This document shows positions 14,331 through 49,547 of a stretch of DNA of 64,000 bases, in pieces. The notes beneath the pieces were generated by a model that did not search any database, had not been told where the DNA came from, and saw only the letters and a program-made list of their open reading frames with translations. Position numbers and translations under genes: made by a program. The stretch's first letter is position 1. Each line of letters begins with the position of its first letter. This DNA is from Guyanagaster necrorhizus (taxonomy: Eukaryota > Basidiomycota > Agaricomycetes > Agaricales > Physalacriaceae). The DNA lies in assembly GCF_019112545.1 (NCBI RefSeq), contig NW_025064918.1:62001-126000 (forward strand). The letters are read 5' to 3'.

Positions 14331-14341
14331 GATGATGGTCT

Positions 14342-14355
14342 TAAGGAGAGGGTAA
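14342..14355 (+). other. Polypurine tract of the chromovirus
   Basis: AAGGAGAGGGTAA directly precedes the 3' LTR. This is the expected position and composition for the plus-strand primer of a Ty3/gypsy element. Confidence 0.65.
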
Positions 14356-19647: not shown

Positions 19648-21346
19648 TTAGTTGCTGGACCCGGTATTGCCGCTGCTGGAACCCCCGGTGTATGCCCTTG
19701 TATTCCTAAAGATACAGATCAATCGGTCGTAATCAGAGATGAGATTAAGGACATATACATATTATTCCTGTTCGATGGACCGCTATTCCAGATCATGAGA
19801 AACATCAGTACGAGAAGAACGATGATTTGATGTGGCTTACGGGTCATTGCGGTGGTGTCTACACAATAGCTCTGTCAGATTCGTGCTGTGTAACGTTTGA
19901 AAGAATACTGACCCAGACGATGGCGAAGTGGCAGGGTAACCACTGCCTGTAGCTCCATATGACGATCCCTGAGTTTGCACGTGACTAGTATGACGGGTCA
20001 GCCGGAGACCATATGTGTTATAAAGCACGATTACCTCAAAGATGAAGCATGCGCCTGATTTGTATGCGCCTGCGCGTAACTGAAAACGCAATCGTTTTCA
20101 GCACGGATGCCATATTATTATTAGGACTTACGCCGCTTGCAGAGCTTCAATGTGGCGAGGTCTGTCGCGGGCAGGACTGTACGATTGGTTGCAGATATCA
20201 ATGAGTGATGTTGATAGACTGACAAGTTTGACTCACTGTGCGGACCGTTGTAGGACGGAGGATGGGATGGCCCTGCGAATAGGATATAAGCATTGGATTG
20301 TCGGTGGGAATACATGGAACCTACCCAAAGGTGTTGTTGTCTATGGTGGCAGGGTTTCCGTGGGAGAGATGGGGCCTTTGGAAGCACAAGGTCGAATGGT
20401 GTGAGATATTGGAGATAAGTATGACACGTACAAGGTCGTGGAACCAGGCGTATAGCTATAACTATTCATGGTCGAGGACGTTCCGTTTCCAGAATGAGCA
20501 GATGTTATGGAAGGTACAATAGAAGCAGACGTTCTTGCAGACGCGCCCAGACCGGACGAGGCGTACTGGCTATTGGCGGCAAATGACATAGACGACAATG
20601 TCCCCGGAATATCATCTGAGGTATGCCGTGATGTCGGTGGAGTGCTGTGGTTTCTATTAGCAGAAAATTCAGCATTGAGATGACCATATGACCTGGAATA
20701 ATGGGAAGATCTCGAGGGTTGATAGTGACTTGAGCTGCGAAGTGATGCAATGGAAGGATTAGAGGATGCATAGTGTCCTGCTGGCTGCCCTGCACCGCCT
20801 CCGGAATATCCTAAGGAGCTTGCTGGCGATACTGTGTTTCTGGTAGAATCCTGCAGTGAGTTTATTGAAGATTGTGCGTTATCTGCTGGCAAATATCCAG
20901 CCAATAATTGTTGCTGAGCCGCCTCTAGTTTAGACGCATTGGACGCATCCTGACATCAGTTGATGAGCTCCGATGAATAGAATTCTTTGAAAAAAGAGTC
21001 TTACCTCGTAATCCCGTTCGATTATAGCTAACGTAGTTCGTACCGTTTCTATGGTTGGCACAGTATTTGGAACTTGCGCTAGCTTATTCCGAATCCATGC
21101 ATGAAAGCGCGTTCTGATCCGGCCAATGAATGTCAGATCACCGAGCGAAGTAAGGAGACTGTAAATAGGGATTCAGATAAAAATAAATCACGGAAAATGA
21201 AGAGCAGCAAGCCAGCAAGTATACCTCTGGAGGTTCTTAAGGATGTCGTCTTTGTCTACGACTAGGGTCGTGTCTCGTTCGACGACTTCAACGAGTGCGA
21301 GAATCTGTTTCTTAACAGCAGCAATCTCGGCTTTCTTGACTGCCAT
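19648..21346 (-). CDS. Family P protein, copy P1 (short-head subtype with Ser/Tyr/Asn-rich tail)
   Basis: The ATG at 21346 (MAVKKAEIAAVKKQI) opens a helical head of about 95 residues spread over two exons. Introns of ordinary size follow at about 21225-21175 and 21003-20950. The head matches copy P6 (50836): both have 'VK+.E' at the start and 'L.DL..F+G.IR..F' in exon 2. The third exon (about 20940-20420) encodes a long disordered tail rich in Ser, Tyr, Asn, Gly and Thr. Further small exons (GPSHPPSYNGPHS near 20260, GSSYGATGSGYPATSPSSG near 19945, TGGSSSGNTGSSN near 19670) continue the same composition to a TAA at 19648-19650. It is divergent from kinase copy B, 326 bp away. Function unknown; the exon chain at the 3' end is a model. 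Confidence 0.6.
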
Positions 21347-21672
21347 TGGAAGTATAAAAGGGAAGTGACTCGAGTGAATGAGAATCAGTCTGGAAGTGCG
21401 CCTTTTTATACGATAATGACGACGATACCCGAAAATGGACTCCCATTTTCACAAACAAACCAAGCAACAAGACTGGGTGAGGTTCGGAATTTGGTTCGAT
21501 TTACCAGGAATGAGAAGGGTAAGAATTTCTGCAGATGTCACAAAGGGGATTAATTATTTGATTCATACCTCTCGCGAGATTCAGGTGGTTGACCGTAAGT
21601 TTACGGTCCGCGGGGCCGAAGACCAAAAATTATTCGGCAGTTTCCGCTGAAACCTTTCATTTCACTGTCATT
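21347..21672. promoter_or_regulatory. Shared divergent promoter region of P1 and kinase B
   Basis: These 326 bp separate two start codons on opposite strands. A TATAAAAAGG box faces P1 (minus strand, about 21400-21410), and a TATAAAAGG box on the plus strand lies at 21353-21361. The spacing is similar to the other K/P pairs, but the 15 bp element found in three of those is not clearly present here. Confidence 0.45.
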
Positions 21673-22968
21673 ATGGCCAGAACCCTGCCATCCTTGCCTG
21701 CGTTCGAAGATCCCCGAACCGCATCAGAATTATTTTGGGTGAAGCATCAGCCATTCTTGGAAACCCAAGGATTTATGCTCCGACCAAGGTACCATCCAGA
21801 TTGGCACCCATCGTGGATTCTGAAGGATGGCACGGACCTGAAAGCAAAGTATGGCTTCAAAGTCGAGGACGATAATATTTTTCTGGTAGGCGCTTATTAA
21901 AAAGTTGTTTCTCAAAAAGTATTATATGTATTTGCAGCATGGATCTGTCCTTCTCGACGCAACTCGGATGAAGGATGGTGTCAAGGTCGTCCTTCGAATG
22001 GTACCGGTAGGCTCACAAGAACTTGCCATGATGGAGCACTTATCATCTGCGGACATGGTCCGCGACCCGCGAAACCGCACTGTTCCTATCCTTGGAATAA
22101 TACCTATTCCAGGTGAAGAGAAACAACGTGTTTTTGTAGTCTTGCCTATGCTACGTGTCTTCAACTCCCCGCCATTTCACTGTCGACGTGAGTTCGCTGA
22201 TGCGTTTCGACAGATCTTGGAGGTAGGTGGCTAGTCCATTTTCGTCACCAAGATACCTACGCCAGTGATAGGGAATACATTTTATGCATGAACATAATAT
22301 CGCGCACGGGTAAGTCGTTTTCTTGTATACCGAAATATCATTCTCATCGATTGGTAGAGATGCATGCACAAGCAATTTCATGATGGACGCTACCGGTGTA
22401 TGTCCAAGGGGTTTTCATATCGCATACCCGCATAGCTACAATGGCGTCTATCACGTCCTTCACGAGCGACCTCGCTGCCTCGTGTCTCCGGTGTCCTACT
22501 ATATCATCGATTTTGAAACAACCCGGCACTTCCCTGCCGGGAGAAACGACGCGCGTGCTACGGCGATGAAGTGCCAGATCAAGAATTCCCCTGAGTTTCT
22601 CTGCTCCCCTCCTCTGCATAACCCTTTCTGTCTGGATGTATACAACGTTGGCGCCACATTCTTCCGAACTTGTGAGGTATTTCATCTTATCTTTCTTCCC
22701 GCTGTATCATCACAAGCTCATGTTCATTCGAAAGAGATATCACGGTCTAGATGATTTCAAACCTTTTTTTCTGACCATGATGGCGGAAGATCCGTTATTC
22801 CGACCGACAACGACGACAGCGCTCGAGGAATTTGATACGTTCATGGCCGCAAAGGATGTCATATGGATGCGTAGCCGCATTTGGCCGAATGACTCATTAC
22901 ACAAGCCACCGTCTCGCTTGGTGCAGTTTCTTTGGCGGAAATTTCCCTCTCTGTTACCGTATTTCTGA
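21673..22968 (+). CDS. Kinase-like protein, family K copy B (intact, 362 aa)
   Basis: Five exons (21673-21885, 21938-22222, 22272-22309, 22358-22676, 22735-22968) join with GT-AG introns into an open frame of 362 codons. The N-lobe signature GFMLRPRYHPDWHPSW is near residue 35. The beta-3 lysine is probably in VKVVLRMV or just before it. The catalytic loop reads HGDACTSNFMMDA: Arg of HRD is Gly, while Asp and Asn are kept. The metal-binding DFG is DFE (YYIIDFETT). The C-lobe has YNVGATFF and the family end PSRLVQFLWRKFPSLLPYF. Such small kinase-like genes are expanded in mushrooms and mostly uncharacterised. Activity is uncertain because of the HGD and DFE changes. It is divergent from P1. 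Confidence 0.8.
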
Positions 22969-25777
22969 ATCGGAATAGAGCATTTCCTGTTGTTTATTTG
23001 TTGTCATACTGCTGTTGACGCTGTCAAACATTTATCTTCAAGTACACAGATCTCTACTAGTAACTCTGTATCTGAAATTCAGTACGAACACAATGAGAAA
23101 ATTGATCTGTCATTGTTACGAAGCCATGAGCATCAAGGTGCCTTAAAATTGGAATCATTGATACACCATCGATGAACCAGAATGAGCCACAACGCAGATG
23201 TAATAGGAGAAACTTGAATTTGGTAGGACTTCGCCTGCCCGGGGAAGCATGTCGCACCATCAGAGAACTACCTCGGTATATCTAGACTGCGAGTCAGAAG
23301 GGGAAACCGAGTATGGGATGGAAAGATGAAATCCAAGAAGTGGAGGAATGTCCCGGGGTCGGGGCCGAAGCGAGTCGACATTTAGGAACCGGTGACATCT
23401 TTGAATTCGTGATAAGTAAGGGAACGGTATTCATAGGCAAAGACGAGGGGTATTTCTCTACGGCTTCGCAGTTTGCTTAAGACTAACATTAGCCTCAACC
23501 AGAAGAGCGTACAGGAAGTCAAAGTGGGACGCATTGTTGCCACATTTCAAATACGTTATCCTTCTGGCGATTCTTGGTCCATCATTCGAGCACGGGAATT
23601 TCTTCCTTATCGTTAGAAGATGTGAGCTGGTTCCCGAATTACCGAGGTGAAAACCTTAAAAACGTGATAGGAACTTAGATGCACTTCTCGTTACACAACC
23701 GGCTTTTTGCGATAGATTTGACAGGAAGAGTTATGGGAATTACGGAACACCGCAGTTTGTTGAGACTCTAGGGCCTAGGTTTCCCTCGTACCATGAGGCA
23801 AAGTCATACTAAAGCTCCAAGATCAATGAAATAATTAGCATTGTGAGAAACAAGTTCCGGTAATAATATTTGACATCCAGATCCGACTCCAGATGATGAA
23901 TGAAGATCGACTAGAAGGAAGTACAGCAACGATGTAGAATTATAGTTTCTGCGGGAGCAAGGATCCAGTAAACGAACATATTTCACCATGGAAGGGGCCA
24001 AGAAAATTCCAAACTGGGAAACCAATTACGCGGTGAGGTTACGCGATGGCTTGTGATGCTGATTCAGAAAGGCCGTGAGAAGAACGTCGGTACCACTGAT
24101 CTATGACTCGACAACGTCCCGGATCAACGTTTTCGGCAACCAAGAATCATACCGTCTCTTAGGGTTTGATCTTTATCTTTTGCTGCGGAAGTTTGCAGAG
24201 TTGAGATAAGGAATATTTGTGTGTTCTTGATTTCTGTTGTCCCAAAGGATCAAAGAATAAAATAGAAGGTATCACAGGACTCCACTTGCATCTCTGTATA
24301 TTAACCGAGCTCAGTGAACGGGATGAGTTCGTCTTGGATGGCGTTAATGGATTCATACAGTGATCATGAGTAATGACCATAGAAAGGGACGTTGAAATAC
24401 TATTAGGTCACAGTGTATCGGAATCGCATATCAGAAGGTAGTGGCCGGCTATCGTTGGTGTCATTTTCGAGTCAGAATGTCACCGTTGTTTTGGTGCATG
24501 AGGCCTTTTGAATAGTTTTCGGATCTTAGATCCACAGTAATCTGGGCGTGATAAGTGACAAATATCAGAACGTCTCTTGCCGGCTCTTATCATTGACGTG
24601 TAAACTTATGAACACAGGGAACGAATTACCTATTTCCACCTTGTCTGGTTCAAGCTTGCAAACCAATCCAAGACGCAGGAGTTCTGCTACCACACAACGA
24701 ATTACACGACATCGCTGAAGGGCTGAAGAAAGGCCGCGTCCGAATGTGCCAGGACACTGAGGTCACCTTACAGTGCAAGACAGATGAAATATGAACTGGT
24801 GTCAACGGCGCGAATCACTTTATGTGAACGCTTATCAGAATTGTGATTGGGACATAAACATTTTGACGGAAACGTTGAGGAACCGCAGCTACATCACGAT
24901 TTATGAGTACAGAGTTTGGATCCTGGGGCATTCTTGAAAGGGCAATAAGACCTATAATGCGGCGATTTAGTCAACATACAGCGCAACGATGAAGGGTTCT
25001 GAAGCTAGATCTGTCGGCTTCGGGGACTGGGATCAGCAGCGGTCAACTATTTGGATCCCGCGAAAGGTACAGTCCCCAGTGAGTCAGAAAATTATTCGCC
25101 ATGATCACATCTACAGAGGTCTGGACATTCTTGTCCGCTCGTAAATCGAACCAGAGTTCAACCTAATCAGTCGGCTGGTTCGTTTGCGGAAATGGCAGGC
25201 CATTTATAATTACTGACTATCATTGATATCATATACTTTTTATTTTCCCCGTCAACTCTGCATTGGTCTAAAATGGTATTTACGTCTACTTTTCAGAAAT
25301 CAAAGGAGTCACTGGCGTCCAATTGTCGATTTCACTCTCCATCTAGCATCAAGCCTAGACTCCACTATCCTGCATACTCCCTGGCAAAAACTCCGCTCCT
25401 TGAAATTGACCTTGCAATCTCATACGGCAAGTGTTGGTCTACCCTTTCGCCTCACCATCTGAACATACCCAGGTAAGTTTCTAATGATGTTCCACGGGCT
25501 GTCACTAGTCGGGGCTGGGGGAATGACAATACATCGAGTTTGTCCGATTGTGGCTATGGTTCATCGACGGTGTGTCAGCGATTGTATCAGCGATAAATGT
25601 CCTTTGACTACGAAGTCTGAGTGATTCATCGTCCCATTGTATGTCCATTGAATGTCAGGTACGGAGTCAGAGATCAGTGTACGGCAGGTTCAATATATAG
25701 ATAGATCATCATAGATATTTGACAGCTCTGATAGCAATGTGATAGCAAATGAACAATACGAAACGGTCTAATCTGAA
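22969..25777. other. Convergent intergenic region, decayed copies of the K downstream unit
   Basis: This stretch lies between the ends of kinases B and C. No coding frame is convincing. Parts resemble the sequence that follows other K copies, for example GATTCAGAAAGGCCGTGAGA near 24061 against GAGTCAGAAAGACCGTGAGA near 33208. I therefore read it as ancient duplicated flanking DNA. CpG content is normal. Confidence 0.4.
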
Positions 25778-27066
25778 TCAGAAGTACGGTAAAAGAATAG
25801 GGAATTTCCGCCACAGAAATTGAACAAATCGAGACCGTGGCTTATACCATGCGTAATCCAGCCAAATGCGACTGCGAAGCCATATCTGATCCTTCGACCC
25901 AATGAACACGTCGAATTTCCTGAGCATCTCCTTCGTGGTCGGTCGTTCAGATGGATCCTTGGCCATCATCTCAACACAGAACGGCTTGAACTCATCCACA
26001 CCAGCATACTTCTTTATAGCAACGTTAATTTGCAATACAAAAAGAGGGCTGAGAACTGAATACCTCACAAAAGCTGAGAAACGTGGCACCGACGTTGTAG
26101 ACATCCAGTCGAAATGGATTGTACGGCGCTGGCGCACTGAGAAATTCCGGCGATGTCTTTATCTGACACTTCAGCGCTATGGCTCGTGCAGCATCTTTAC
26201 CCTCGGGATAGTGCCTTGTTGTCTCGAAATCAATGATATAGTATTTGACGGGCGGCACAAGGCACCGTGGTCTCGCTTGAAGTCCAAGGCGAAGTCCGTC
26301 TATGCTGCCTATGTCGGATGTGAAACCCTTTCGGGCAGACGTTTGTGGCGTCCATCAGGAAGTTGAGCGTACATGCACCTCTAGAGCAACGTTACTAAGA
26401 TCGATTTAAGAGCATCGATGGACTCACCCGTGTGCGATGTTGTTTTCATGCATGAAATCTATACCCTTCTTCGTCGTAAGATGAGCCCGACTACGAAGGA
26501 TGCAGTAGCCCACCTCTAATATTTGTCTAAATGCATCAGCAAACTCTCGTCGACAGTGAAAGTCTGGAGAGTGAAACCATCGAAGAACAGGCGAGATCAC
26601 AAACACCCTATCATTCTCCTCGCCAGGTATCGGTATAGTTCCTAGGACAGGAACTGTATGGTTGCGTGGGTCGGAGGGCATTTTGGGCGAGGAGAGGTGC
26701 ATCATCATAGCCAGTTCCAGTGAGCCTACTGGTACGATACGAAGGACGACTTTGACGCCGTCCTCCATCCGAATTGCATCTATGATAGTAGATATATACT
26801 AGAAAGGAAGGCTCTTGTCTTCGGAAATAATAATGAAAAGATAAAAATCTCACAATCGAACGATGTTGGTCCTGAAAGATCAGAAAAGAATATTTTTCTT
26901 TCAAGTTGGTGCCATCCTTTTGGATCCACGAAGGGCGCCAGTCTGGATGGTATCGCGGGCGGAGCATGTAACCCTGGCTTTGCAAATACGGCTGATGCTT
27001 AACCCAAAAGAATTCACGGGGTGAGCTCAGATCTTCGAATGGAGGGAACGCAGGCCGCCTGGTCAT
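25778..27066 (-). pseudogene. Kinase-like family K, copy C: frameshifted, catalytic Asp lost
   Basis: The ATG at 27066 starts a copy whose exon 1 (213 nt), exon 2 (285 nt, 26798-26514) and exon 3 (38 nt) have exactly the lengths seen in copy B. GYMLRPRYHPDWRPSW is intact. In exon 4 the catalytic loop reads HGGACTLNFLMDA, so the catalytic Asp is replaced by Gly (GAT to GGT). About 60 nt further on, near 26300, a net 2 nt deletion relative to copy B shifts the frame before KYYIIDFETT. The rest of the C-lobe to LLPYF is present. This is a recent pseudogene, or a pseudokinase if an unseen splice repairs the frame. No family P partner is seen on its 5' side. Confidence 0.7.
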
Positions 27067-28410
27067 GGTTGAAATTGAATGGACGATGCTGAACGTGCCG
27101 CATGTAAGGTCCCGGTAATTTTGATTTTTATGCCAGTGTCCTTGGCAGCGCACGTCGCATAGAAATCATGGTAAATAAGACGAAGTAGACATTGATAATA
27201 CCGAATGAAAGTCGTTGGAGACCCAGGTGCATCCAGAATTTCGTCAACTTCATGCAGATGGCTGTTGGGTAATGACTTTGAGATCAGGGTCCCATCACAA
27301 GAAAAAAAGATCATAGTAACTCGCACACAGAGTGAATTTTTTCCATAAACATTCTTTGGAAACCTCTTATTGAAAGGTTGGGTCCCATGGAGCTATTGTT
27401 TTGTGCGCCGAGTCAGAGCTTGAGCCCTGAGGACCAAGATTCAGATATCTGCCAGCACGGAATCATGGATGTTGATTGAGCAGGGTAGCCAAAAAATTGG
27501 AAACCGATTTCCGAATCAAGAGCTTTAGAATACGAGTGGTGCAACACGATATTCGTGGTACACATTTTCCGGGTTTGCTTCTGGTAGGTGCCGGGTCGGC
27601 ATTCGAAAGAGGATACTTTGTAAGTATTATTTTCAGAGGGGCTCGCCTTCCTTATTTACTTATCTCTTGCTCCAATCTTGCTTAGCTCTCTCCTTCATCC
27701 TCAGTTTCTGGGCGGTGTTCCGATTTGATGGATAAAATATCTCATTGTATTATCTACCCCTTTGCCCATTGTCAAAGCTAATCTTCTTCAGCGGCTCGGT
27801 GCCTCAATATATTGAGGGATGTACCTATTGTCCTGTCTCCGATTAATTCGCCCCCGTCATTTTAAATGACTGGATTTTTCGAAATCCTTCCATTTCCACA
27901 GTAGGTTCACTTTGGCTGTAATATCAGAATAAAGGTTCCCTTTCAAACGCCGGTTTTCTGAATGTCAGCATTTATTTATTTCAGGCAAAGATAAAGCGGA
28001 TGGGATGTGCTCTTGAGTGCGCCACGTTGAATCCGGTGCTAGTATTACGCCACCAATCATCATAGGATGTCCCACGGAGTTATTCCTTAACTGGACATCT
28101 GGTAGGTCCATATACGTATTTCAAACATTAATTTCTATTTCGTCACCCATGTGGCCGTCGAGATGTTGAAAGTAGCTGATATCCATATGACGCTGCAAGG
28201 TTGGCCGAGAAAAGAATAAAAATACGGAGAGAATACCCAATGCCGAACAGGAGAGAGGGGTAGAAACGGAGAGAACAAGGTAGAAGCCGGGATGCCGGAC
28301 AATACGCCGTGACATACGGCAGCGGTGCTGGAACCTCGTTTTGGTCATCGCCGGGCCCAAGGCACCCCAAACAGTCGTCTCTCTTCATTTCTTTCTTTCT
28401 CACCTCCACC
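27067..28410. other. Intergenic region upstream of the bZIP gene
   Basis: It separates two divergent genes, kinase C and the bZIP factor. No third gene is visible. The last roughly 100 bp are pyrimidine-rich (TCTCTCTTCATTTCTTTCTTTCTC), typical of fungal transcription start regions, and lead to a CCACC context before the bZIP ATG. Confidence 0.45.
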
Positions 28411-31766: not shown

Positions 31767-33482
31767 ACGGTAAATTTTGGCACAAAGCTGCGTTGCGACG
31801 CATACCGGCACAGTGTTGGATTCCCAAATGTTTCTCATCATTTACCGGTGCGCACGACTCTAGCGGCGCGTCGCGCATTCAGTAATAGGGTATGCCGGGC
31901 CACAAAAACGACGTAATCCACGGCGACATGGTATGCTCCCAAGACCGGTGATAAGACGATGGCACACTGGAACAGGGAACGGATCTGAAAGCTCGGTGAG
32001 GAACCAGATGATAATTTCAAGATAGCGAGCTGTAAGGTACATCAGGCTTTAGGAAAGGAAGCAGTACAGACTACGGAGTGAAATATGAGGACCAAATTCA
32101 TCGCAGCTTACCAACGAGATATCGGCAAACTAGGTTCAGAGTGGACAGTCCTGATGCCGAGAAGTTTTCCTCGTGTTAAGCAGAGAAGCGCCGACATCGA
32201 ATGGAATAGTTATGTGAGCCACACAGGGAAGGGTGCGGATCCAGGTCGTGATTAAGCTTCCTAGAGATGTATACGTCGGCTAGCAGCATGAGAGCACAAA
32301 TGTCGCCAAGAAAATCTCATAGAGGAGTGGGAATCAGTGAAGACCATGAACATTTTCAAGAGAAAAGTTTGGGCGGCAGGTATAGAGCCACATCATGGAG
32401 TCAAAAAGCTGTGCGAATAACTCCGGTACTGCGGTGAGTCACAAAAACATGACTATGCATCGCCCAAAGAGTTAAAGGCTATATCTTTCATAACAGGCTT
32501 GATAAAGACTGCCCGTGGTGAAATACTTTCAGTCGCTCCCTAAATTTCAGGTTCGAATTTGCGATTCGGTTCGAAGCAAGGTTATGCGGGCATGCTTCTA
32601 TCAGCGACCGCCGTTCCACTGACAGCTTCCTAGGTAGTGCAGGAATAAAGTAAAAGCTCGAACAAGCAGAACATTAGCTCCGTCGTCAAACCGGTTCAAA
32701 GGTGAATGAGGAGGTCCAACCCAAAAGCTTTCCTGTAGCAGAAGAAAACTAGGGTTGTCTTCCGATTGGTGGAAATGTCCGTGTTCGCAACCTAGACCAT
32801 CAGCCGGCAGAGGAGCGCGCTCAGAACAGCTCATTAGTCGATATACAGCAAACCTTTACCAAGTACTGGGATCATGAGTTGAAACGATGGCAATGCGACC
32901 ACGCGGATGTCAGAGTCCAGGGGTCCAATCTAATCTGCTTCTTTCAGAGACGCGAGGAGATACATGGAACGTCACAGCCCCCGAATACTCCATCGCATCT
33001 TTAGTGAAGATATCAGGGAAGCATCGAAATCAATCAAATTGCTGTGAGGGCCACGAGTAAAGATAGCCACAGAGTTTCGACTAGGGAGTGGCGACAAAAC
33101 TGCAAAGGACGACGCAAAGTCTCAAGTTGCATCGAAAACATGTTCCAGAGAGCGAACCATTCAAAGGAAAGAAAGCAGGAATGCGGAAATATGAGCTGGC
33201 GTCATGAGTCAGAAAGACCGTGAGAGTGGCTCGGTACCGTACTGACTCGTTGACGAAGACGTCATGTTTGCAATGAGGATATCCACGTTCCCTCGGCAAA
33301 TGGCACGACCCTTTGTGTGATCTAGGTATCTGATCCTGAGCGGCGAGGTACCGTATCCTTTTGGTCCACTAGTACGATTGTTTCATCTCCAAAAGAACCA
33401 GTTCGGAGCAGAGCGGATTTCAGAGCTAAATTACAGAATGACAAGATAAAGATAACGATCTACGGAAAGCATTAAATATCAT
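31767..33482 (-). repeat. Downstream unit of kinase D, inverted copy of 43430-44760
   Basis: Read on the minus strand, this sequence follows the end of kinase copy D. It matches the plus-strand sequence that follows kinase copy F. Clear anchors are AGAGACGCGAGGAGATACAT (32946-32965) against the complement near 43960-43980, and the region 32500-32600 against 44320-44420 (around GAAATACTTTCAGTCGCTCCC). No gene was identified in it. It is probably non-coding flank copied with the kinase. Confidence 0.6.
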
Positions 33483-34491
33483 CTAGACGTAGGAATGACA
33501 AGGATGAAATACATAATATAGAAACTGTATCCAAAACATGGGACAAACCGATCGCACACCTCATTCGACCATATCCTCCGCGTCAGGGACGATTTGCCTG
33601 CTCATGACACCACATGTTCAAACTGACCAAGTGATTCGGACGCCATCGATCTCTTGTTAGGATCGATCGAAACCATCCTGCGTAGTAGAGGCTTGAAGTC
33701 GTTCAGTCCGGTATATTCCTGCATCACTGGTTAGGATTACAGACCAGACCTTGATAATAACAGTGAGGGCTTACCTCGAATATGTCGAGCATGGCAATTC
33801 TAAGCTGGTAGACGTCAGCTTTGAATGGGTTATAAGATACATTACCTGAGTCCTTCATCTCCAGTACGCGCTGACCGACGATTCCCGAGACAAGGTCTTT
33901 ATCAATTCCCTCAGGGAAGCATTCCGCGAATTCAAAATCGATGTAGTAATAGTCGACTGGACCGACGTAACATCGAATTTCAGTGGAGAGACCCCACTCC
34001 ACGTCGTCGTGACTGATCCTATCACCGAAATGGTACCCCTTGGGAATTACGTGTCGATGGTTCATTACGAGATTATTTATACTGATGTCTCTAGATGCAG
34101 GACAACATGAGTCAAAGAGGAGACACAAAAAAGAGTTAACAAGACTTATGAGCAGTGTTTTTGGTATGCATGAATTCCAAGCCCTAATCAATGCAATAAG
34201 TAACAGACAATCATGATAATATCACAATACTCAATGGAAAGCAGTTGTCTGAATATCTCTGTAAACTCCAGTTGACAATGAAAAGGAGGAGTCACAAAGT
34301 TCTAACATGCTAGGAATTGGGAATATGTTGAGAAAAGGTATGACATTATTACAGGGATCTTTTCTCATCACCTCTGTTGACAAAAAGTGTGTGATTGATA
34401 GTTCAGACTCACCCTTCTGCAACAACATGGCTTTCAGCATGACTTTTGAGCCATTGGAGAGGCATATGGCAGCTATAATTTGTCATCTCTA
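33483..34491 (-). pseudogene. Kinase-like family K, copy D: truncated and half CpG-eroded
   Basis: Exon 2 (from about 34491), exon 3 (near 34190-34150), exon 4 (34085-33772) and exon 5 (33720-33483) are recognisable. Exon 1 is missing: the sequence becomes repeat DNA beyond about 34500. Exon 4 has RDISINNLVMNH in the catalytic loop and YYYIDFEFAECFPEG. Exon 5 has one in-frame TGA (after FEHVVS). Exons 2-3 contain no CpG at all while exons 4-5 have normal CpG. In exon 2 the Arg of 'RKDPRNN' in copy F is Cys (RKDPCNN), a CGT-to-TGT type change. The copy is dead. It is the same subtype as copies E and F. Confidence 0.75.
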
Positions 34492-37211: not shown

Positions 37212-37292
37212 TGGAGAGGTAGAGCTGAGGGGAGTCAGAGAGGGAGTCGCTTCGATCACCTGAAAAGCAGATACTGTGGCTATTTATCCTAT

Positions 37293-37307
37293 AGCCGGAG
37301 ATTTCCA
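37293..37307 (-). promoter_or_regulatory. Conserved element upstream of P2
   Basis: AGCCGGAGATTTCCA lies with its first base 82 bp upstream of the P2 ATG. On the minus strand it reads TGGAAATCTCCGGCT and is followed after 5 nt by a TATA-like ATAAATAG. The same arrangement occurs before P3 and P5. Confidence 0.55.
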
Positions 37308-37483
37308 CACAAGTGAAGGTTGACGACGCCTTCATTCCGAAGGAGGAATAAGAAAGAAAAGCCTCGAAGGGCCAAGGCAGTCGAAATAATATGAGCCGGT
37401 TTGCTCTTTCAATTTCCTAAATGGGTCGCATCAGAATCGTCACATAATCCACAGCCTTTTCCGATACTATCACCCACTCCAGC

Positions 37484-38796
37484 ATGGATTGCGCAAAGAT
37501 ACCACAGGCAGACACGATGTATATACCGATGGACTCGGAGAGCCAAGAATGTGAGCAATTCTGGGTTTCTCACCAGCCTTTCCTCGCCTCATGCGGATAT
37601 ATGTTACGACCACGATATCATCCTGATTGGATACCCTCATGGAAATCTAATCCTCACCCCATAAGCCTGTTGCAGTTTTATGAAGATGAGCATGTAATTC
37701 ACGAGGGTCGTGTATGTGTTATTCTGTGATATTCCCTTCATCCTAGTCTGCTCATCGATATTCAGGCATGGAGATTAATAGACGCCACTCGAATCTCTGA
37801 TGGGTGCAAGGTCGTACTGAAAGTGGTTTCGCTACTCGCAAATGAATACGAGCTGAGACTCACACACTTTCTCTCTCAGCCGGCAGTCAGACGGGATCCC
37901 CGCAATCATGCTATTCCTGTTCTTGATGTGGTCAACCTTCCGGACGTGAAGAACATAGCATTGATTGTCATGCCCATGTTCCATTCCTTCTTAAGATCTC
38001 CATTTCACTGTCGACTGGAATTCATCCAACTTTTCTAACGAGTTCTTTCTGTTGAGTGTTTCTTCTTCGAGAAAGTCCTCGTCCATTGACTCTCAGATAT
38101 TCTCAGGGATTAGAATTCATGCAGTCTAAACATTGCACATAGGTAATGTTAGTTCGAGTCCGCTCCCTGACCTTCACTGACTTCTGTATAGAGAGACATC
38201 AGTATCAACAATGTCGTCATGGATCAGCGGCGCATTATGCCGAAGAGGTACCATTTCGGTTTTGACGCTAGTCAAGATGGCATCGAGTGGAATCCTCCAA
38301 CGGAACTGCGATGTCTGGCCGGACCGGTGGACTACTACTATATCGATTTACAGTTCGCTGAATACTTCCCCGAAGGAAGGGATAAAGCCATCATTTCGGA
38401 AATAGTGGGCCAGCGCGTTCCTGAGATGAACAATTGAGACGATACTTTGTATAATCCATTCAAGGCGGACATTTACCAACTCGGTGCTACCATGCTCGAT
38501 GAATTTGGGGCAACGTCTGTCTGTCTCCTCTAATTCTTTTGAACTCATCGATCTTACAGAGGCATTCTGGACTGAGCGACTTTAAACCCTTACTGCGGAA
38601 TATGGTTTCGGTCAATCCTGATGAATGACCGACAGCTTCAGATGCGCTAACTCGATTCGACGCTATTATATCACGATCAAGTAAAGTGTCCATGACATGG
38701 AGGATATGGTCAAACCGCCTCCGTGATCCATCGGTTCCATGCTTCTGGAGTCGGTTTCTCTACTTTATTTTCCTTCCCTGCCGTTCCTTCATCTAG
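37484..38796 (+). pseudogene. Kinase-like family K, copy E: several stops
   Basis: The start MDCAKIPQADTMYIP and the 228 nt exon 1 match intact copy F in length and sequence (GYMLRPRYHPDWIPSWK). Exon 2 ends with a premature TAA at about 38037, where copy F has CGA (IQLF-stop against IELFR). Exon 3 is damaged. Exon 4 keeps RDISINNVVMDQ and YYYIDLQFAEYFPEG, so the DFE of copy F is here DLQ. It ends with a TGA after VPEMNN. Exon 5 has another stop inside NPDE-stop-PTAS. The copy is inactive but still nearly full length. Confidence 0.8.
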
Positions 38797-40048: not shown

Positions 40049-41849
40049 TCAGCTTCTTGCAGTCATCGAAATAAATAACTCCACGTACCCTGGCGAGCGC
40101 AGGCTGCTCCCGGAGGAGCCCGCTCCGGAGCTCTGGCCTTCACGAGACGCCTGACCGTATGTGCTGGTCGACGTGCTCGCTTGGCGACCGTGCTGCTTCT
40201 TTCCACTTTTTCTGTCATAATAGAATCAACCGTAATCCTTATTTTGTCTGGAAACGCGCATTACTCACTCAGAACTCTGGTGCGAACCGGACGATCCCAA
40301 GGACGAAGAAGATACATTATTGTGCATCGATGTGTGCCGAGAGATCCTAAAGAGATATCATGAATCACAGAAGATGGAAGGACAGTCTGGGAACATACCT
40401 GACTCCAAATGTGTTAGTAGTATGAGTGGTATGAGTGGTATGAGTAGTATCAACCGACGGCTGATGAGCGTGGCCAGGGACGTAGCCTGAAGCAGCTATG
40501 CTGTTTCCAGTGTTAATGACATTGTGTGGTCCGGACGGCCCGTTGTAATTTCCAGAATTTCCAGAGGTTCCAGCAGCAGGGATCGAACCCACGAGCCCTG
40601 GTCTCACGGCCCTAGAAACGATTAGCACCGACTGAGATGTTCATGACAAAAAACTCACGGCAAACACGGGATACTCCGGAATGCCTGCGATGCGGCACGA
40701 AAGGGAGCCGATAGTTCATTCTCCTCGGAGGCACGGCGGGGAGGAAGTTCCCTGTGAATAAACCGAATCAACATGAAGATCGAACAAGAGGAACAGAACG
40801 TACGGTGGGCTGGAGGGAGGGTAGCGTGTTGTTGAATTGATCATACATGAGACAATGCAGCACGCACTTGTTGTATTCCTCCCAGGAAACGATCTGCCCT
40901 GGGAATCCGGGCTTGGGGAGGTTTGTCAGGATTTCAGAAGGGTATCCTTGCCAACCGGTGTTGTGTTCTAGTCAATGACAGTAGGCCTGAATATCGATAG
41001 CTGTACTATACAGTTCTCGACGCACCAGCCATATATGCATTCTGTGGCAAATTCGGCGCAGAGTATTGGCCTTGTCCGACATTGTATTGAGGGAAGGATA
41101 GAGTAGGTAAATCTTGCTGCGAACCTGAATTCATATGAAGAGTAAGAGATACACAGATGCGTGTATTTGATACACGTACTGATAGGAAGTTTACGACTGG
41201 TAGATCTATTGCTGATCTTCGGAAGCGATAGCATTGATCTGCTTTTACTGGAAATATTGCCGAACACATTTCCTCCAGAGTTAACAATTGTAGACTGTTG
41301 GGTCGACGGAGAGGCGGAAGGTGCGGAGGAGTAATTGTTGACTGCCTGAGCCTGAGAATTCTCGGCGATTCTCCGTTCAGATTCGTTCTAGAACCCGCCA
41401 AAACGACGTTATTGAAGAATAACCGTAAGATATGGAAGCGCACCCTGGCATTCAACTGTGACTCTTTCAAATCCCGATAGATGTCGTCGAGTTCCTGTGC
41501 CAGTGGTGTGGCAAGAAGGACTCTAAAACGACTGGCTACCATACTATACCACTGCTCACGGGTAGCCGGAGATGCCCTCTGTTCCTTGATCTGCGTGATA
41601 GTTTTCAGTGCCCTTGACACGTGTCGTCAGTCCTGTAGAAACGAAAGTAGTGAGATGGACAAACTGATCAACATTGTCTAGCAATTCCTGGATGTCGTCG
41701 TCTCTAGTAAGGGTCCCCTCTGGAAGAGGAAACAGTTCTTGGATTTCAATGTTGACAGCGTCGGCAATGGCCTTCACATGGTCGAGTTCTTTGCCTCGAA
41801 TGACAGCATATCGCAGCTTCAAATCTTGGGTAACAATACGCTTAGCCAT
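40049..41849 (-). CDS. Family P protein, copy P3 (WYS-TP subtype with low-complexity tail)
   Basis: The ATG at 41849 (MAKRIVTQDLKLRYAV) aligns with the starts of P2, P4 and P5. Exon 1 encodes a helical segment ending near 41670. Exon 2 (about 41605-41470) carries EQWYSMVASRFRVLLATPLAQEL, the best copy of the family motif. Later exons are a model: a Ser/Gln/Asn-rich piece (AVNNYSSAPSASPSTQQS near 41330), a more ordered piece with GFPGQIVSWEEYNKCVLHCL (about 40910-40850), a His/Thr-rich piece with repeated THT (40450-40400), and a last exon rich in Ser and Gly with a TGA at 40049. Intron positions match P4. It is divergent from kinase F, 269 bp apart. Function unknown; the disordered tail suggests protein-protein contacts. 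Confidence 0.6.
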
Positions 41850-42118
41850 GAGAGGTGAGAGCACGGCTTGGGGCCTGAGAAGTGGGGATTCCGAGTGACA
41901 GCCAACCAAATGTCGCGACTTTTATGTCAGAGCCGGACATTTCCATTACATATGATATAACAGAAAAGTAAAAGTAAATGGTCGAATGAGGAACCCTCAA
42001 GGCACGTTGAGAACATCATCCTTGTGAGCCAGTTTGCCTGATGACTGTCACCAAAACAGGGCACCCATCAAAATCTGACATAATCATCTTCCCTGGTTCT
42101 TTCCGACGTCCACCTGGC
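41850..42118. promoter_or_regulatory. Shared divergent promoter of P3 and kinase F
   Basis: These 269 bp lie between two start codons on opposite strands. On the kinase side, copies E and F share CATCA-A-AATC followed by ACATAATC about 45-60 bp before the ATG (near 42065-42085 and 37425-37448). On the P side lies the 15 bp element described separately. Conservation at both ends suggests coordinated expression of the pair. Confidence 0.5.
41931..41945 (-). promoter_or_regulatory. Conserved element upstream of P3
   Basis: AGCCGGACATTTCCA begins exactly 82 bp from the P3 start codon, the same distance as in P2. On the minus strand it is followed after 5 nt by ATAAAAG, a likely TATA box. Confidence 0.55.
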
Positions 42119-43425
42119 ATGGATTCTCCGGAGCAGCCTCGCGCCAAGAAACTCTACATACCAGCTAACTGTGATCGCAAAGAAAATGAAATGTTTTGGG
42201 TCAACCTGCAACCTTTTCTCGCTTCCCAAGGATACATGCTCCGGCCACGATATCACCCGGACTGGATTCCTTCGTGGAAGTCCAATCCTCATCCGCAAGC
42301 GGACTTGAAGTCCTATGAAGACGAGCATACTATACATGGCGGACGCGTACGTGGCAATCATTTTGGCAGTTCGTCTGCTCATGAAATTTCAGAGATGGAG
42401 AATTATAGATGCAACTCGTGTATCTGATGGCAGTAAAGTGGTCATTAAAGTTGTATCATTGTTGTCGGACGAGTTTGAACTCGGAATTTTGCAATTTTTC
42501 TCGACGGAGGAAGTGCGGAAGGATCCTCGTAATAATACCATACCGCTTCTCGATGCATTCCCAATTCCCGGTGTGGAGAATTGGGCTCTAGCGGTCATGC
42601 CCATGTTTCGTTTCTTTGCATATTCGTATTTTCATTGTCGGTTGGAATTTATTGAGCTGTTCCGACAGCTACTTTCCGTTGAGTATTGTCTCTGCAGTGT
42701 GCTCTACGTCACTGATATTGATGGATCAGGGCTTGGAGTTTATGCATAGCGAGAACATCGCTCATAGGTGCAGTTTGTTTTCTACAATATATTTGCTTGC
42801 TCATCTTGACCCACATGCACAGAGATATCAGTGTCAATAATATCCTCATGGACCATCGACGGGTCATGCCCAAGGGCTATCACTTCGGCCTCAAACGTAG
42901 CCATGATGGTGTCGAGTGGAGTTTGCCAACTGAACTCCGTTGCCGCGTCGGACCAGTAGACTACTACTATATCGATTTCGAATTCTCGGAATGCTTCCCC
43001 GAGGGAAGGGAGAAAGCCCTTGTTTCGGGAATCGTTGGCCAGCGTGTTCCAGAGATGAAGAATTCGCAGGACGTTCTCTACAATCCGTTCAAGGCAGATG
43101 TCTACCAGCTTGGTATTGCCATGATGAACATCTTTGAGGTATGGCCGTCTGCTCCCCTCTGATTTGTATTTTCTCATCAGCGCGACAGGGTTATACTGGC
43201 CTTAATGATTTCAAGCCTTTGCTGCGGAAGATGGTCTCGATTGATCCCGATGAGAGACCAACGGCATCGGAAGCGCTAGTCCAGTTCGAGGCTATCGTTT
43301 CTCGGTCAAGAAAATCGTCCTTGTACTGGAGGATATGGTCAGATGACTTGTATGATCCATTAGTACCGTGGTTTTGGGTTCGATTCTTCTATCATATCTT
43401 TCCTCCTTGCCGTTCACATGTTTAG
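42119..43425 (+). CDS. Kinase-like protein, family K copy F (intact, 367 aa)
   Basis: Five exons (42119-42346, 42393-42677, 42730-42767, 42823-43138, 43189-43425) give an open frame of 367 codons. The exon lengths of 285 and 38 nt are identical to copy B. GYMLRPRYHPDWIPSW marks the N-lobe, SKVVIKVVS holds the likely beta-3 Lys, and the catalytic loop HRDISVNNILMDH is canonical. The metal-binding motif is DFE (YYYIDFEFSECFPEG) and the APE equivalent is VPE (GQRVPEM). Phosphotransfer is therefore plausible, more so than for copy B. There is no signal peptide or membrane segment. ATG 42119 is chosen because copy E starts at the same place; an in-frame ATG at 42041 exists. It is paired head to head with P3. 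Confidence 0.85.
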
Positions 43426-44894
43426 ACGCGATTCAATTTATTCTATGTAGTTATTATTTTTATTCAGCTACTCTGTAATTCAGCTCCGCAACATGCGTTC
43501 GTAGAGGGTTCTTCTTTTGGATCGTAACGATGGCATCCTGAACCGATCCGCAAGCCACATTTTGCTCGTGCTAATGGACCAAAATGGCGTGGTACCTCGC
43601 TGCTCAGGATCAGATAGCCTTGATCACAGCATGATCGTGACATTTGCCCGCATTGCAAATACGAACCTTTCTTCAACGAGTCAGTATGATACCAAGCACT
43701 TTCATGGTCTTTCTGACTCATGACGCCGACTCGTTGGTCAACATTTGTGCTTCTTCCGTTTAAACTGTTGCTCTCTCACTCTCTGGAACATATTTTTGAT
43801 ACCGTTTAAGGCTTTGCGTCTTTCTTTGAACTTTCGTCACCACTCGCTAGTCAAAACTCTGTGGCTGGCTTTACTCGTGGCTCACACAGCAATTTGTTTG
43901 ATTTCAGTGCTTCCCTGATATCTCCACTAAAGATGAGATGGAGTATTCTGGGCTGTGACGTTCCATGTATCTCCTCGTGTCTCTGAAAGAAGCAGATTAG
44001 AGTTGGACCCTTAGACTCTGACATCCGCATGGCCCCATTACCGTCCTTTCAACTCCTGACCCCAGGACTTGGTAAAGTTTTCCTATATATTGACTAATGA
44101 GCTATTATCAGTTCTCAGCGCCCTCCTCTGTCGTCTGATGGTCTAGGTTCCGAACACCGACATTTCCATCAATCGAAACGAGACCCTGGTATTCTTCCGC
44201 TACACGAAAGCTTTTGGGTTCACCTTTGAACTGGAAATTGTAATGCTGACGACTGAGGTAATGTTCTGCTTGTTTGAGCTTTTACTTTATTCTTGCGCTT
44301 CCTACGAATCGCGCTCGCTAATAGGAGCATGCCCGCTTCGAACCGAATCACAAACTTGAACCTGGGATTTCAGGGAGCGACCGAAAGTATTTCACCACGC
44401 GCAGTTTTTATCAAGCGTGTCATATAAGATACAGCCTTTTACTATTGGGGCGAAGCGTAGTCATGTCCTTTGTGACTCACCGCGGTACCGAATTTATTCG
44501 CACGGCTCTTTGACTCGATGATGTGGCTCTATACCTGCCGCCCAAGCTTTGCTCCTGAAAGGTCTTCATCGTCTTCACTGATTCAGATTCGTCCATCAGA
44601 TTTGTTTCGCGATGCTTGTGCTCTCATGCTACTATCCGACGTCTACATCTCTCTAGGAGGCTTAATCACGATCTGGATCTTGTGTGGCTCACATAGCTAT
44701 TTCATTTGATGTCGGCGCTTCTCTGCTTAGCATGAGGAAATCTTATCTGATATCCCCGCTCGAACACGTGATGTGGTTTCCTGGCCCTCGACGCTTCTGT
44801 TCGCTAGACTGTCACTCTTGTGTCTCGTGCAAACTTCTGGATTTGGACAATGGATTCCTGTAAATATTCCTCCTCGATCTGGAAGTTTGTTCTT
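43426..44894 (+). repeat. Downstream unit of kinase F
   Basis: It matches the minus strand of 31767-33482, the flank after kinase D, and part of it recurs after kinases E and G. No coding frame is convincing. CpG content is normal, so it escaped the erosion seen near copy D. Confidence 0.55.
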
Positions 44895-45230
44895 GCGGAT
44901 GTTTACCAGCTTGATGTCGCCATGCTGGACCTTTGCGAGGTAACGTCTGTCTGCCTCTTCTGGTTGTGTAAAGCTAATCCGTGATATAGAGGTATACCGG
45001 GCTGCGCAACTTGAACCTTTACTGCGGAGCATGGTTTCGGTTGATGATCCTATGATGATCTTACTAAGAAACTGACAGCTTTAGACGTGCTAGCCCAATC
45101 AGAGGCCATCGTCTCTCTCGTCTCTCGCTCGAGCAAATTGTCCATTTCATGGAGGATATAGTCAAACAGAGTTTGCGATCCTTTGGTCCCATGGTTCTGG
45201 GTTAGCTTGCTCTGCTTTGTTTTCCCTCAC
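44895..45230 (+). pseudogene. Kinase-like family K, relic G (C-terminal part only)
   Basis: GCGGATGTTTACCAGCTTGATGTCGCC starts a relic of the exon 4 end (ADVYQLDVAMLDLCE). It is followed by the intron and a shifted exon 5 (near 45000-45215) that still shows the end of the C-lobe (CATGGAGGATATAGTC against the tail of copy F). It has no N-lobe or catalytic loop. It probably arose by tandem duplication of the kinase plus its downstream unit. Confidence 0.6.
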
Positions 45231-46016: not shown

Positions 46017-47302
46017 ATGGCTGACCACAGCACCGATGGTCTAATGCACCGAAACACTGTCAGTGACAAGGAGATCGAGCAGGTCAAGACCATTGCAAAC
46101 GAACTCATCTCCAAAATCAACACGAGGTTTACAAAGGCGAACACTAGTGGGGACGCCATTCTCGAGCAATGGGTCGAGAATGTTACATTGTTCGTCTATA
46201 TATTTATTCAGTTCGGGTTGTCTCTTTTCTGAAAATATGATATCACCAGGGCCTTGGGAGATACCACTAATATCGAATATACCGATTGGTATTCTGAACT
46301 GGCCAAACGGTTCGTATATTTCCTCGAATCTACACCTGCGCAGGAAGAACTCCCTTTGGTATTCGGGAAATTACAGGAGATCGAGATCGGTTCCGAGGTG
46401 CATGATGAAAACATTGACTTTAGAGATTCGCCTTCTTTACATTGGTTTCAGAACACTTTCCGATCAAAGGAAGATTTACCTTGATAACGCCTCCTCGAAC
46501 AATTCTGTTACATCTCAGAATGTATCAATTCGACCCGGGAATACTGTGACTAGCATATCGGACAATGATCGCCTCGTCACTTCCTCCGGGAAAGCCCCTT
46601 GTCTCACCGTTGAGCAGATTAAAGAAGCATTGTCCTCAGTGTACCGTCTTTACCCTTATGATCCGTGAGTAAGATTGTGATATAGTCCTCGATAACTCTG
46701 ATGGCGGTCTAGGACCCTGGGGCAATTCAGAGGTTGCGTTAGAAAATATAACTATGCCACTAGACCGAACGGCATGGTTGACGCTGGGACTAATTATGCT
46801 TCAGGCCACATTCCTAGCCATTCCCGTCCCCCGGAGAATACCACCCACCCTACCGATACGTCTGCAGTTAGGTATGTCCGCAGGTTATCGTTTCATCTCC
46901 TTTGATTAATAGCGTTTCTTTAGGGAAGCGTCGATGCATATCGCATCGTCCTCATCCTTAAGATTTCCTGTTTTTTTCTTGGGCTCGAGAAGCCAGCTTG
47001 AAATCATTGCAACCTACCTCAAGCTTCGGTACGTAACGCTTTTATGAACGTAATGCGGATTGCGATTAATCTTATCGCACAAGACGAGGTGTTTATGAGC
47101 GTCCGGATGGCCAAACGAGCGGATCGGAGAGCCCCACGCCGGCCAGACGCCTCACGGAGACCAAAGCGACTCAGGATCCTCGGGGACAGCTCCTCCCCGC
47201 ACAGGTATGTTAGGTTATTGTTTTGATGTTGGTGATAAAACTGACCAACTTTAATACCAGTTCCTGAGCGTCCAGTATTATGCCGTCGCTATTGATCTAT
47301 AA
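46017..47302 (+). CDS. Family P protein, copy P4
   Basis: The ATG at 46017 begins MADHSTDGLMHRNTVSDKEIEQVKTIANEL. Exon 1 ends near 46190. Exon 2 from 46247 carries TDWYSELAKRFVYFLESTPAQEEL, the family motif. The tail exons as modelled contain NASSNNSVTSQNVS (46490-46545), then LTVEQIKEALSSVYRLYPYD and, after an intron, NYASGHIPSHSRPPENTTHP (about 46790-46850). These parallel P3. A last exon ends in TAA at 47300-47302 (FLSVQYYAVAIDL). No stop was found in the exons as modelled. There is no kinase head on its 5' side, only the K downstream unit, so this copy is unpaired. Confidence 0.5.
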
Positions 47303-47729: not shown

Positions 47730-48480
47730 CTAAAGGAAGTACTCTTCCAGGTGCACAAGGAACTCATGCGAGGTCACTTCCTTGCACGGGCTGATGTAGA
47801 TGTCGTTTGAGTTATTCATCTCTGTAACTCGCTGGCCCACCGTTCCCGAAACGACGGCTTTAAGTTTGACTCCTCCTTCCGAGGGGAAAGCATTCAGAAT
47901 AAAATCGATATAGTAGCAGTCACCTGGTCCCGCGAGACAACTCAGCTCGTTCGATAAATTCCAGTCGACAGTGAAACGGAGGAGCTGACAAAGAATGGAA
48001 AAATCAAAGCAAGGTTCTTCACAGATAGACCACATCACGAATGACAATAACACGATTACGGGGAAGTCGCCTGAGTCCTGGCCGAGATAGAAAATGTGCG
48101 ATTCGCAGCTTGAACACGTTTCGATAGTAGTGAGACGACTTCCAGTATGACCTTGCATCTGTCAGAGAGTCGAACCACGTCTACTATCATTATGCCTGAA
48201 CCTCAGTGAGCAAATAACGAAATTTCATACGATAATGCTTACACGACCGACGTAGATTACACGTTCATCTTCATAAAACTGCAACAGGATTATGGGATGA
48301 AGATTGAACTTCATGAAGGAATCTGGCAATCAGGATGATATTATCGCGGTCGTAGCATGTGTCTGAAGATGGTGACTGATAGATTATGTAAGTCTTTGGC
48401 GACCTCATTTAGGAAGGTCCATGATCGAACAAATCGGCTCAATTCAATTCGTCTTGACTTCTTCCTCCCTGGCGCCTATA
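47730..48480 (-). pseudogene. Kinase-like family K, relic H
   Basis: On the minus strand, remnants appear in the right order. MLRPR lies at 48358, followed by a stop within the YHPD motif. A damaged exon 2 follows. Exon 4 matter reads NELSCLAGPGDCYYIDF, then GTVGQRVTEMNNSNDIY (about 47950-47790). The catalytic loop itself is not found. Comparison with copy F puts its former start codon near 48478, about 125 bp from the start of P5, so a divergent K/P pair once stood here. Confidence 0.65.
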
Positions 48481-48504
48481 TTGTGTGCTGTTTCTGTCTC
48501 TAGA

Positions 48505-48520
48505 ATGGACATCTCCGGGG
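48505..48520 (+). promoter_or_regulatory. Conserved element upstream of P5
   Basis: ATGGACATCTCCGGGG corresponds to the complement of the P2 and P3 elements. Its last base lies 82 bp before the P5 ATG at 48602, and it is followed by ATAAAAC at 48530. Three independent copies at one distance argue for function. Confidence 0.5.
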
Positions 48521-48601
48521 CAGTCAGAGATAAAACCTACCGATATCTGATGGCGCAGAGCCACTCCTCTTTACCCAATCCCTCCCCCCTTTCTGACTCT
48601 C

Positions 48602-49547
48602 ATGGACAGCCCTATTACCCAGGATTTGTGGCTACGAGGTGATATCATCTGTAGCAAGGAGATCCTTCAAGTCAGAGTCATTGCGAATTCCCTCCAGCTT
48701 CACATCCAGAATACTTTTGACAAGGCATGCGCCGACCAAGAATTAATCAAATGGGTATTACGCGTCGAAATGTTCGTTCAATATGCAGAGACCTTCATCC
48801 TGGCTTAATAATCTCTCAATCCAGGCTTTTGGATAAAATTCCAAGCTTGGAAGCCAATGCTAACACCCGGATGGAGTGGTACACAAGTATATACCAGCAG
48901 TTTAAGGAAGCCCTTTCGCATACACCGCTCCGTGGTGAGCTTTCGTTGATCAATGCGCGGTTGCAGAAGATTCAAGATGGCGCGGACGTATGTCTTCATT
49001 TGCATTGTCTTCGACTGTCGTCACGCGGATACTATTTCTAGAGAGAATCTGATCAGAGAATGATCGACAATCTAGCTAACGCTGGTAACATCCCCACCTC
49101 AGGACAGTTTCCTGGCTACGCATTTTCTGTAGATTTTAGCAATACTGGAGGAAGGTGTGTGACCAAAAATGACATCGTACTGTTTTCTAAGCAGATTACC
49201 TACTAGAAGCATTTTCCTGCCAACATCAAACTACAACACGTCGTCTTCATCCTTGGCTGGCCCTGCCAGGGGCTTAAACCATCAAGATCAAGCATGGCTG
49301 CGGTATGTGGCGCAGTTACTCTTCTTGTAGTGACCAGACTGAAAGTGTCTCAGAGAAAGCGTTCGTATCCGACAAGGCGGCTACACTCCGAGTCAGCCAT
49401 ACATTTACGCGAGCTTCCATGACCATCTCTGTAGATGCCACAGGGATGACGAGTCCTCCCAGACAACTCAATACGGGAGCTACTAATGCTCTGATGCTCT
49501 TCCCGTTATTAGGCCTGAAACTTGAAGAAAGGATTAAGACTAAGTGA
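48602..49547 (+). CDS. Family P protein, copy P5
   Basis: The ATG at 48602 begins MDSPITQDLWLRGDI, matching P2-P4. After a first intron (about 48776-48824), exon 2 carries MEWYTSIYQQFKEALSHTPLRGEL. Exon 3 (about 49045-49155) has GQFPGYAFSVDF. Exon 4 is Ser/Asn-rich (NYNTSSSSLAGPARG). The last exon (about 49330-49547) contains DQTESVSEKAFVSDKAATLR and ends in KTK-stop. P2 has the equivalents of the last two motifs. No internal stop was found in the modelled exons. It is divergent from kinase relic H, so the P member survived while its K partner decayed. Confidence 0.55.

Follow-up and report, generated by a model that had tools for sequence, protein, structure and literature searches.

Divergent K and P genes in the window

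This work concerns two gene families lying side by side in 64,000 nucleotides of the basidiomycete Guyanagaster necrorhizus, a member of the Physalacriaceae (contig C39, NW_025064918.1, positions 62001-126000; hereafter the window, from whose first letter coordinates are counted unless a contig or locus is named), one coding for kinase-like proteins (K) and the other for small proteins (P). K genes were modelled by aligning protein to genome with GT-AG introns, using a program made for this analysis, and their neighbours were examined in this one genome, an assembly of 53.3 Mb in 109 contigs. The initial annotation had described four places where a K and a P gene diverge head to head from a short shared spacer, and the splice-aware models reproduce all four, with spacers of 326, 272, 269 and about 125 base pairs (bp), as well as its reading of their state: P1/K-B and P3/K-F are intact, P2/K-E is dead on both sides, and K-H/P5 has lost the kinase only.

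The first pair joins P1 (20341..21346, minus strand; ATG at 21346; exons 21225-21346, 21005-21158 and 20344-20949), an open gene for a core followed by a Ser/Gly-rich tail, to the kinase-like K-B (21673..22968, plus strand; ATG at 21673), which has no disablement, carries Arg in place of the beta-3 Lys and reads HGD where HRD is expected; the 326-bp spacer covers 21347..21672, and the 3′ limit of P1, placed at 19648 before, lies at 20341 in our model. In the second pair P2 (36392..37211, minus strand, far end approximate; ATG at 37211) carries two stops and one frameshift, and K-E (37484..38793, plus strand; ATG at 37484), a pseudogene with three stops and one frameshift, is annotated as the 247-amino-acid protein P0011; the spacer is 37212..37483 (272 bp). 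The third pair consists of the open P3 (41178..41849, minus strand; ATG at 41849; exons 41665-41849 and 41444-41612, followed by a tail exon whose frame stays open until about 40971), a 269-bp spacer (41850..42118) and K-F (42119..43425, plus strand; ATG at 42119), which has five exons and no disablement, and whose spliced protein is 100% identical over 367 amino acids to the annotated P0001, ‘kinase-like protein [Guyanagaster necrorhizus]’. In the fourth, K-H is a relic (47781..48472, minus strand) with four frameshifts across 120 aligned residues, the first alignable of which is residue 45 at 48340; its 5′ end is inferred, and the spacer of about 125 bp is measured to that inferred start. 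Its partner P5 (48602..49330, plus strand; ATG at 48602; exons 48602-48771, 48825-48987, 49042-49154 and 49210 onward) is open.

The description of K as kinase-like holds for K-F, which has the catalytic residues expected of Pfam PF00069 (Pkinase), namely K/HRD/N/DFE, and scores 45.4 bits against that family, above the curated cut-off of 31.7. It does not hold in the same sense for the subfamily of K-B, where the beta-3 lysine and the HRD arginine are both lost: K-B itself scores 22.8 bits, below the cut-off, the lysine is replaced by Arg in K-B, K-C, C46a, C46b, C11b, C11c and three of four Armillaria members (Gln in the fourth), and HRD becomes HGD, HVD or similar. Among the 117 listed homologues the beta-3 position is Lys in 108, Arg in five and another residue or a gap in four. 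These substitutions lead us to predict a pseudokinase or weak kinase for the K-B subfamily. An AlphaFold model of K-F, built on 13 sequences (confidence score, pLDDT, 73), has kinases as its best PDB matches (expect value, E, 5.5e-11), with a query template-modelling score of only about 0.4 to 0.5. K-F thus resembles the protein kinase superfamily both in passing the PF00069 cut-off and in the fold search, and differs from it by a family-specific N-terminal part (LRPRYHPDW.PSW) and by DFE for DFG. Membership in FunK1 (Pkinase_fungal, PF17667) was rejected, K-F reaching 18.2 bits against a cut-off of 24.1 and K-B having no match listed; the likeness to FunK1 lies in the weak K-F match and in being multi-copy fungal kinase-like genes. 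FunK1-type matches in this assembly occur in pairs with equal or near-equal scores (G000 C61:67809-69084 and 81219-82494; C13:1145375 and 1267387), which are perhaps recent duplications or assembly duplicates.

The P genes, by comparison, are recognized by their plan. In P1, P3, P5 and three further members introduced below (P6, P7 and P8), exon 1 ends in phase 2, an exon 2 of 151 to 169 nucleotides ends in phase 0, and a tail follows. The introns of P1 and P3 fall in the same columns of a spliced protein alignment (A1), as judged by eye; in a six-sequence P alignment this remains true of the first intron, and the second is displaced by several columns. None of these six proteins has a Pfam match over cut-off, the weak matches of P3 below cut-offs and that of P8 to an Allexivirus 40-kDa family (18 bits, cut-off 26) being taken as chance, and no sign of a transposon origin was seen. 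A model of the P6 core, which includes 16 residues of a probable intron, shows four helices at pLDDT 66 and finds no PDB match with E below 0.001; given this low confidence and the missing match, the fold is stated only as probably helical. P is a small protein with a probably helical core and a long low-complexity tail, and the core of P1 is likewise predicted to be helical, by analogy with its relative P6.

Pairs on other contigs, their age and constraint

When P1 is searched against the whole assembly it matches C39 and one other site, C46:64632-64784 (E 3e-5), which adjoins a K gene. By hand arithmetic, the chance of a random match falling next to K is about 0.0006 (16 K-clade copies times 2 kb, or about 32 kb of the 53.3 Mb). 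At this site P7 (ATG at L011:6450, plus strand), with an open core and a tail of uncertain extent, diverges from K C46b (ATG at L011:6163, minus strand) across 286 bp, and on C11, P8 (ATG at L012:2972, minus strand) diverges from K C11b (ATG at L012:3292, plus strand) across 319 bp. P8 is annotated as BT62DRAFT_993886, with a start inside the modelled exon 2 and a longer tail than the model; it is assigned to the family by its position, its gene structure and a similarity that is weak by hhalign (E 0.0066, probability 6%). In total there are six head-to-head pairs on three contigs (C39, C46 and C11), their spacers running from about 125 bp to 326 bp, so that P homologues, whose absence outside this locus would have counted against the initial annotation, exist in P7 and P8.

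A 5-kb segment carrying K-B and K-C (window 21634-27035) matches L011 on C46 (449-6129) at 80-93% identity. In the C46 segment the K-B part is inverted relative to K-C, and the breakpoints lie near the start of K-C and some 40 bp upstream of the K-B ATG; the two copies of the segment therefore differ in their P partner, which is P1 in the window and P7 on C46. No P was found upstream of the window's K-C (25781..27057, minus strand), which has one frameshift and HGG for HRD and whose similarity to the C46 copy stops at 27035.

Queries with P1, P3, P4, P5, P6, P7 and P8 find relatives in the whole assembly at K loci only, and matches elsewhere have E above 2. P3 and P8 match only themselves and the queries do not all recover each other, and a P gene that has diverged very far may have gone unnoticed. 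A divergent P accompanies six of the 11 K copies of the armillarioid clade that retain a 5′ end (K-B, K-E, K-F, K-H, C46b and C11b, as opposed to K-C, C46a, C11c, C39_338 and C39_343); K-A, K-D, K-G, C11a, C39_341, one C2 piece, C39:295 and C19:486, being fragments or copies with the 5′ end absent, were excluded from this count. Next to distant K copies no P was found in any of 12 (four on C2, two on C6, three on C14 and one each on C7, C11 and C20), a difference with a Fisher probability of 0.005 in which duplicate copies are not independent. P-template scores upstream of other K copies are within or near the range of eight null windows (36 to 50), with two exceptions, 52 beside one distant K and 53 between genes, at 39 kb; P8 itself reaches only 46, and a very divergent P could therefore escape these controls.

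A search by gene structure upstream of K was positive in three of 25 rows (K-F, K-B and C11b), some of the rows being overlapping copies of a single C2 stretch, and negative for C46b with its P7. Over 455 kb of strand (the window and the loci except L016) it gave 16 hits, of which six fall in P genes (an internal start of P3 among them) and ten elsewhere, and missed P7, and structure alone is therefore a modest filter. These ten hits, the absence of P3 among annotated proteins of the length range searched and the lack of a first exon in the P8 annotation could all be read as signs that the P genes are chance open frames beside K. We find this very improbable, since intron phases agree and exon 2 is of similar length in six genes and P1 finds P6 and P7 genome-wide, with E of about 2e-5 and 3e-5. 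Differences counted by codon position are also biased to the third in P1-P6 (43, 29, 60) and P6-P7 (53, 29, 68), as they are in P2-P5 (64, 57, 88), in alignments built on protein, which itself favours this pattern; P3-P4 (106, 85, 106) does not show it.

The K tree (IQ-TREE) holds 138 proteins, namely 21 Guyanagaster models and 117 taken from the 120 listed of 347 homologues over the threshold; two long homologues were omitted, P0001 is the row of K-F, and P0011 and P0017 are the versions of K-E and C39_343 annotated in Guyanagaster itself. It contains a clade of 30 members (support 100) that splits into two groups of 15 (support 100 each), one with K-F (P3) and K-E (P2), the other with K-B (P1), C46b (P7) and C11b (P8), and both with annotated Armillaria proteins. 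Two Hymenopellis and two Mucidula proteins join the K-B/K-C lineage (support 92) and the C11 copies join Armillaria. K-D, K-E, C39_343 and the C11 copies each group with separate Armillaria proteins (support 98-100), and K-F groups with proteins of Desarmillaria and A. gallica; re-rooting removed the support value of this last node, and the surrounding clade has 99. The relatives P0002, P0003, P0004, P0005 and P0026 of other species are full-length or nearly so, and K-E, K-D, C39_343 and C11b/c are disabled in Guyanagaster; this argues for loss of old lineages and not for a fresh burst. The suggestion that the family was amplified and is quickly turning into pseudogenes is thus at odds with the tree, which makes the K lineages old, many of them disabled in Guyanagaster. 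Only K-B/C46a and K-C/C46b look like recent duplications. In three Armillaria species, proteins belonging to distinct K lineages lie on contigs of the same size (A. novae-zelandiae P0003/P0006, A. gallica P0010/P0097 and A. mellea P0008/P0026), which suggests K clusters there too.

K and P have diversified together. Across the six pairs, a set that includes the disabled K-H, K-E, C46b, C11b and P2, protein distances correlate with a Mantel r of 0.81, the best of 720 relabellings, and the neighbour-joining topologies are identical, although the two-subfamily block structure carries much of the correlation. Distances are 0.34-0.73 for K and 0.61-0.90, near saturation, for P, and P evolves faster than K. 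The single topology, with P-bearing K on both sides of a split that has Armillaria on each, argues that the pairing is old.

In an alternative reading, K and P are only a linked duplication unit with a shared promoter, neighbours copied together with no functional link. Compact fungal genomes often have genes placed head to head a short distance apart, duplicated blocks do take in entire pairs or portions of pairs (P2/K-E with K-H/P5; K-D with K-F plus flank), and either side of a pair can die alone. We nevertheless hold this to be rather unlikely, because the pairing was kept across the old K split, though no 8-mer is common to three of the six spacers, because P relatives were found nowhere else than at K loci, and because in C46 copy a, where the break about 40 bp before the K ATG separates K from P, the separated K is dead. 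The earlier claim that pairing persists through duplication stands, and extends to three contigs and the old K split; that the two products work together is what may reasonably be inferred from the congruent trees and the restriction of P relatives to K loci.

Both intact kinase-like genes evolve under constraint. Since its split from the dead C46a, K-B has accumulated 14 synonymous and three nonsynonymous changes, compared with seven and 16 in C46a (Fisher 0.0016), or 12:6 and 8:16 when K-C serves as outgroup. K-F shows 56:30 (synonymous to nonsynonymous) against 41:66 in the dead K-D (Fisher 0.0003) and 55:31 against 53:70 in the dead K-E (Fisher 0.003).

Other copies and surrounding DNA

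Two further P genes in the window have no visible head-to-head K, the P4 core (46017..46397, plus strand; two open exons and a tail of uncertain extent) and the open P6 (50166..50836, minus strand; exons 50715-50836 and 50513-50666, then a tail). The K-D relic (33486..34482, minus strand) lacks its first exon and has one stop and three frameshifts; parts of K-D and K-F, together with about 1 kb of downstream DNA, form an inverted duplication (32159-34284 and 42629-44747, 73%). K-G (44895..45227, plus strand) is a relic of the 3′ part only, and K-A (18660..19115, plus strand) is a chimeric relic, in which 65 bp like the 5′ end of K-B (94% to C46 copy a) are fused to a K-C-like 3′ part, perhaps the footprint of a deletion between K copies. 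K-E (P0011) and C39_343 (P0017; L013 7545-8812), disabled in our models, are publicly annotated as shorter proteins, probably by predicted introns that jump over the disablements.

A retroelement-like stretch with a Tf2-1-like SH3 domain occurs at three C39 sites at about 70% identity (window 11833-14686, L013 682-2444 and L024 8-2229); the window copy sits near 12-15 kb, at a distance from the K/P pairs. Neighbouring genes at 28264-30400, 52700-56300 and 60096-60851 include a bZIP-like factor that stays under the Pfam cut-off, alcohol dehydrogenase-like genes and a G-alpha-like match, weak and likewise under the cut-off.

A proposed two-gene module and its possible relatives

The interpretation we favour, with a probability of roughly 0.55, is that armillarioid fungi possess an old module of two divergently transcribed genes, K and P, in which P would bind and regulate K. 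One short intergenic region would drive the expression of both genes, P would act on K as inhibitor, adaptor or substrate, and the fast change of P would track that of K. This reading builds on the pairing, its recurrence on three contigs, the co-diversification of K and P and the constraint on K-B and K-F.

Several results weigh against it. K-B is without the catalytic lysine, and the segmental duplications imply that the congruence of the K and P trees comes partly from linkage alone. The spacers, searched for a shared motif, have no 8-, 9- or 10-mer common to three of the six. Five of the clade K copies that retain their 5′ end showed no P, all five of them disabled, and P5 and P8 are open while their partner K is dead, so that P does not need its own K. 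The P5 branch has 37 nonsynonymous changes, more than its 15 synonymous ones, and constraint on P5 is therefore not supported. No homologue of P3 (among 5.77 billion proteins, 103-329 amino acids) or of P8 (among 5.77 billion) was found outside Guyanagaster at E<=1, though K orthologues are annotated in other species; the length limits and exact-word prefilter of this search miss unannotated, fused or very divergent orthologues. Finally, hhalign joins the P types with E values of only 0.022 (P1-type and P3-type), 0.0066 (P1-type and P8) and 0.032 (P3-type and P8), at probabilities of 2 to 6%.

Somatic recognition in basidiomycetes is described as poorly understood (PMC8229728). The persistent K/P pairing offers concrete candidates for interacting proteins and a hint to the function of a large Agaricomycetes kinase-like family, and illustrates how an orphan family can be recovered by position and intron phase where sequence search fails. 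Literature searches, most of them broad and covering titles and the beginnings of abstracts, returned no report describing K/P pairs and no study of this kinase-like family.

A more specific proposal is that K and P belong to a two-component recognition or poison-antidote system, where K (or P) would be harmful and its partner would restrain it, a fast-evolving helical P restraining or licensing the kinase-like K in self/non-self recognition and intact K being kept only with its P. An open P does stand beside both of the undisabled clade K genes found, while the five clade copies that retain their 5′ end, but beside which no P was found, are all disabled; P stays open with no intact K (P5, P8, P6) and diverges faster than K. 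We regard the proposal as unlikely all the same. Four of the six K copies with a P are also disabled (Fisher 0.45), and with only two intact K genes the pattern of intact K with open P is an anecdote; P, moreover, has no Pfam match over cut-off. Fungal two-gene allorecognition loci with divergent partners do exist, an example being het-B of Podospora, which an excerpt of PMC10890737 presents as a pair of neighbouring genes whose variants diverge strongly, one gene of the pair coding for a small protein, and to that extent similar to K/P. The differences are that het-B belongs to an Ascomycete and codes for HET/TIR and PII-like proteins, and that K/P is known here from the genes of one assembly.

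Closer in layout to the two-gene module are the HD1/HD2 mating-type pairs of Agaricomycetes. These are divergently transcribed in mushrooms and, as passages of PMC8686365 describe them, consist of two unlike genes, with several paralogous pairs per locus and some copies missing. The K/P genes are not themselves a mating-type A locus by our searches, in which no homeobox match at Pfam cut-offs was seen in K-F, K-B, P1, P3, P5, P6, P7 or P8, and they differ from HD1/HD2 in the kinase fold of K and in being spread over three contigs. They share with HD1/HD2 the repetition of divergent pairs of unlike genes, here six times, and by this likeness the HD1/HD2 pair would be the nearest architectural analogue of K/P.

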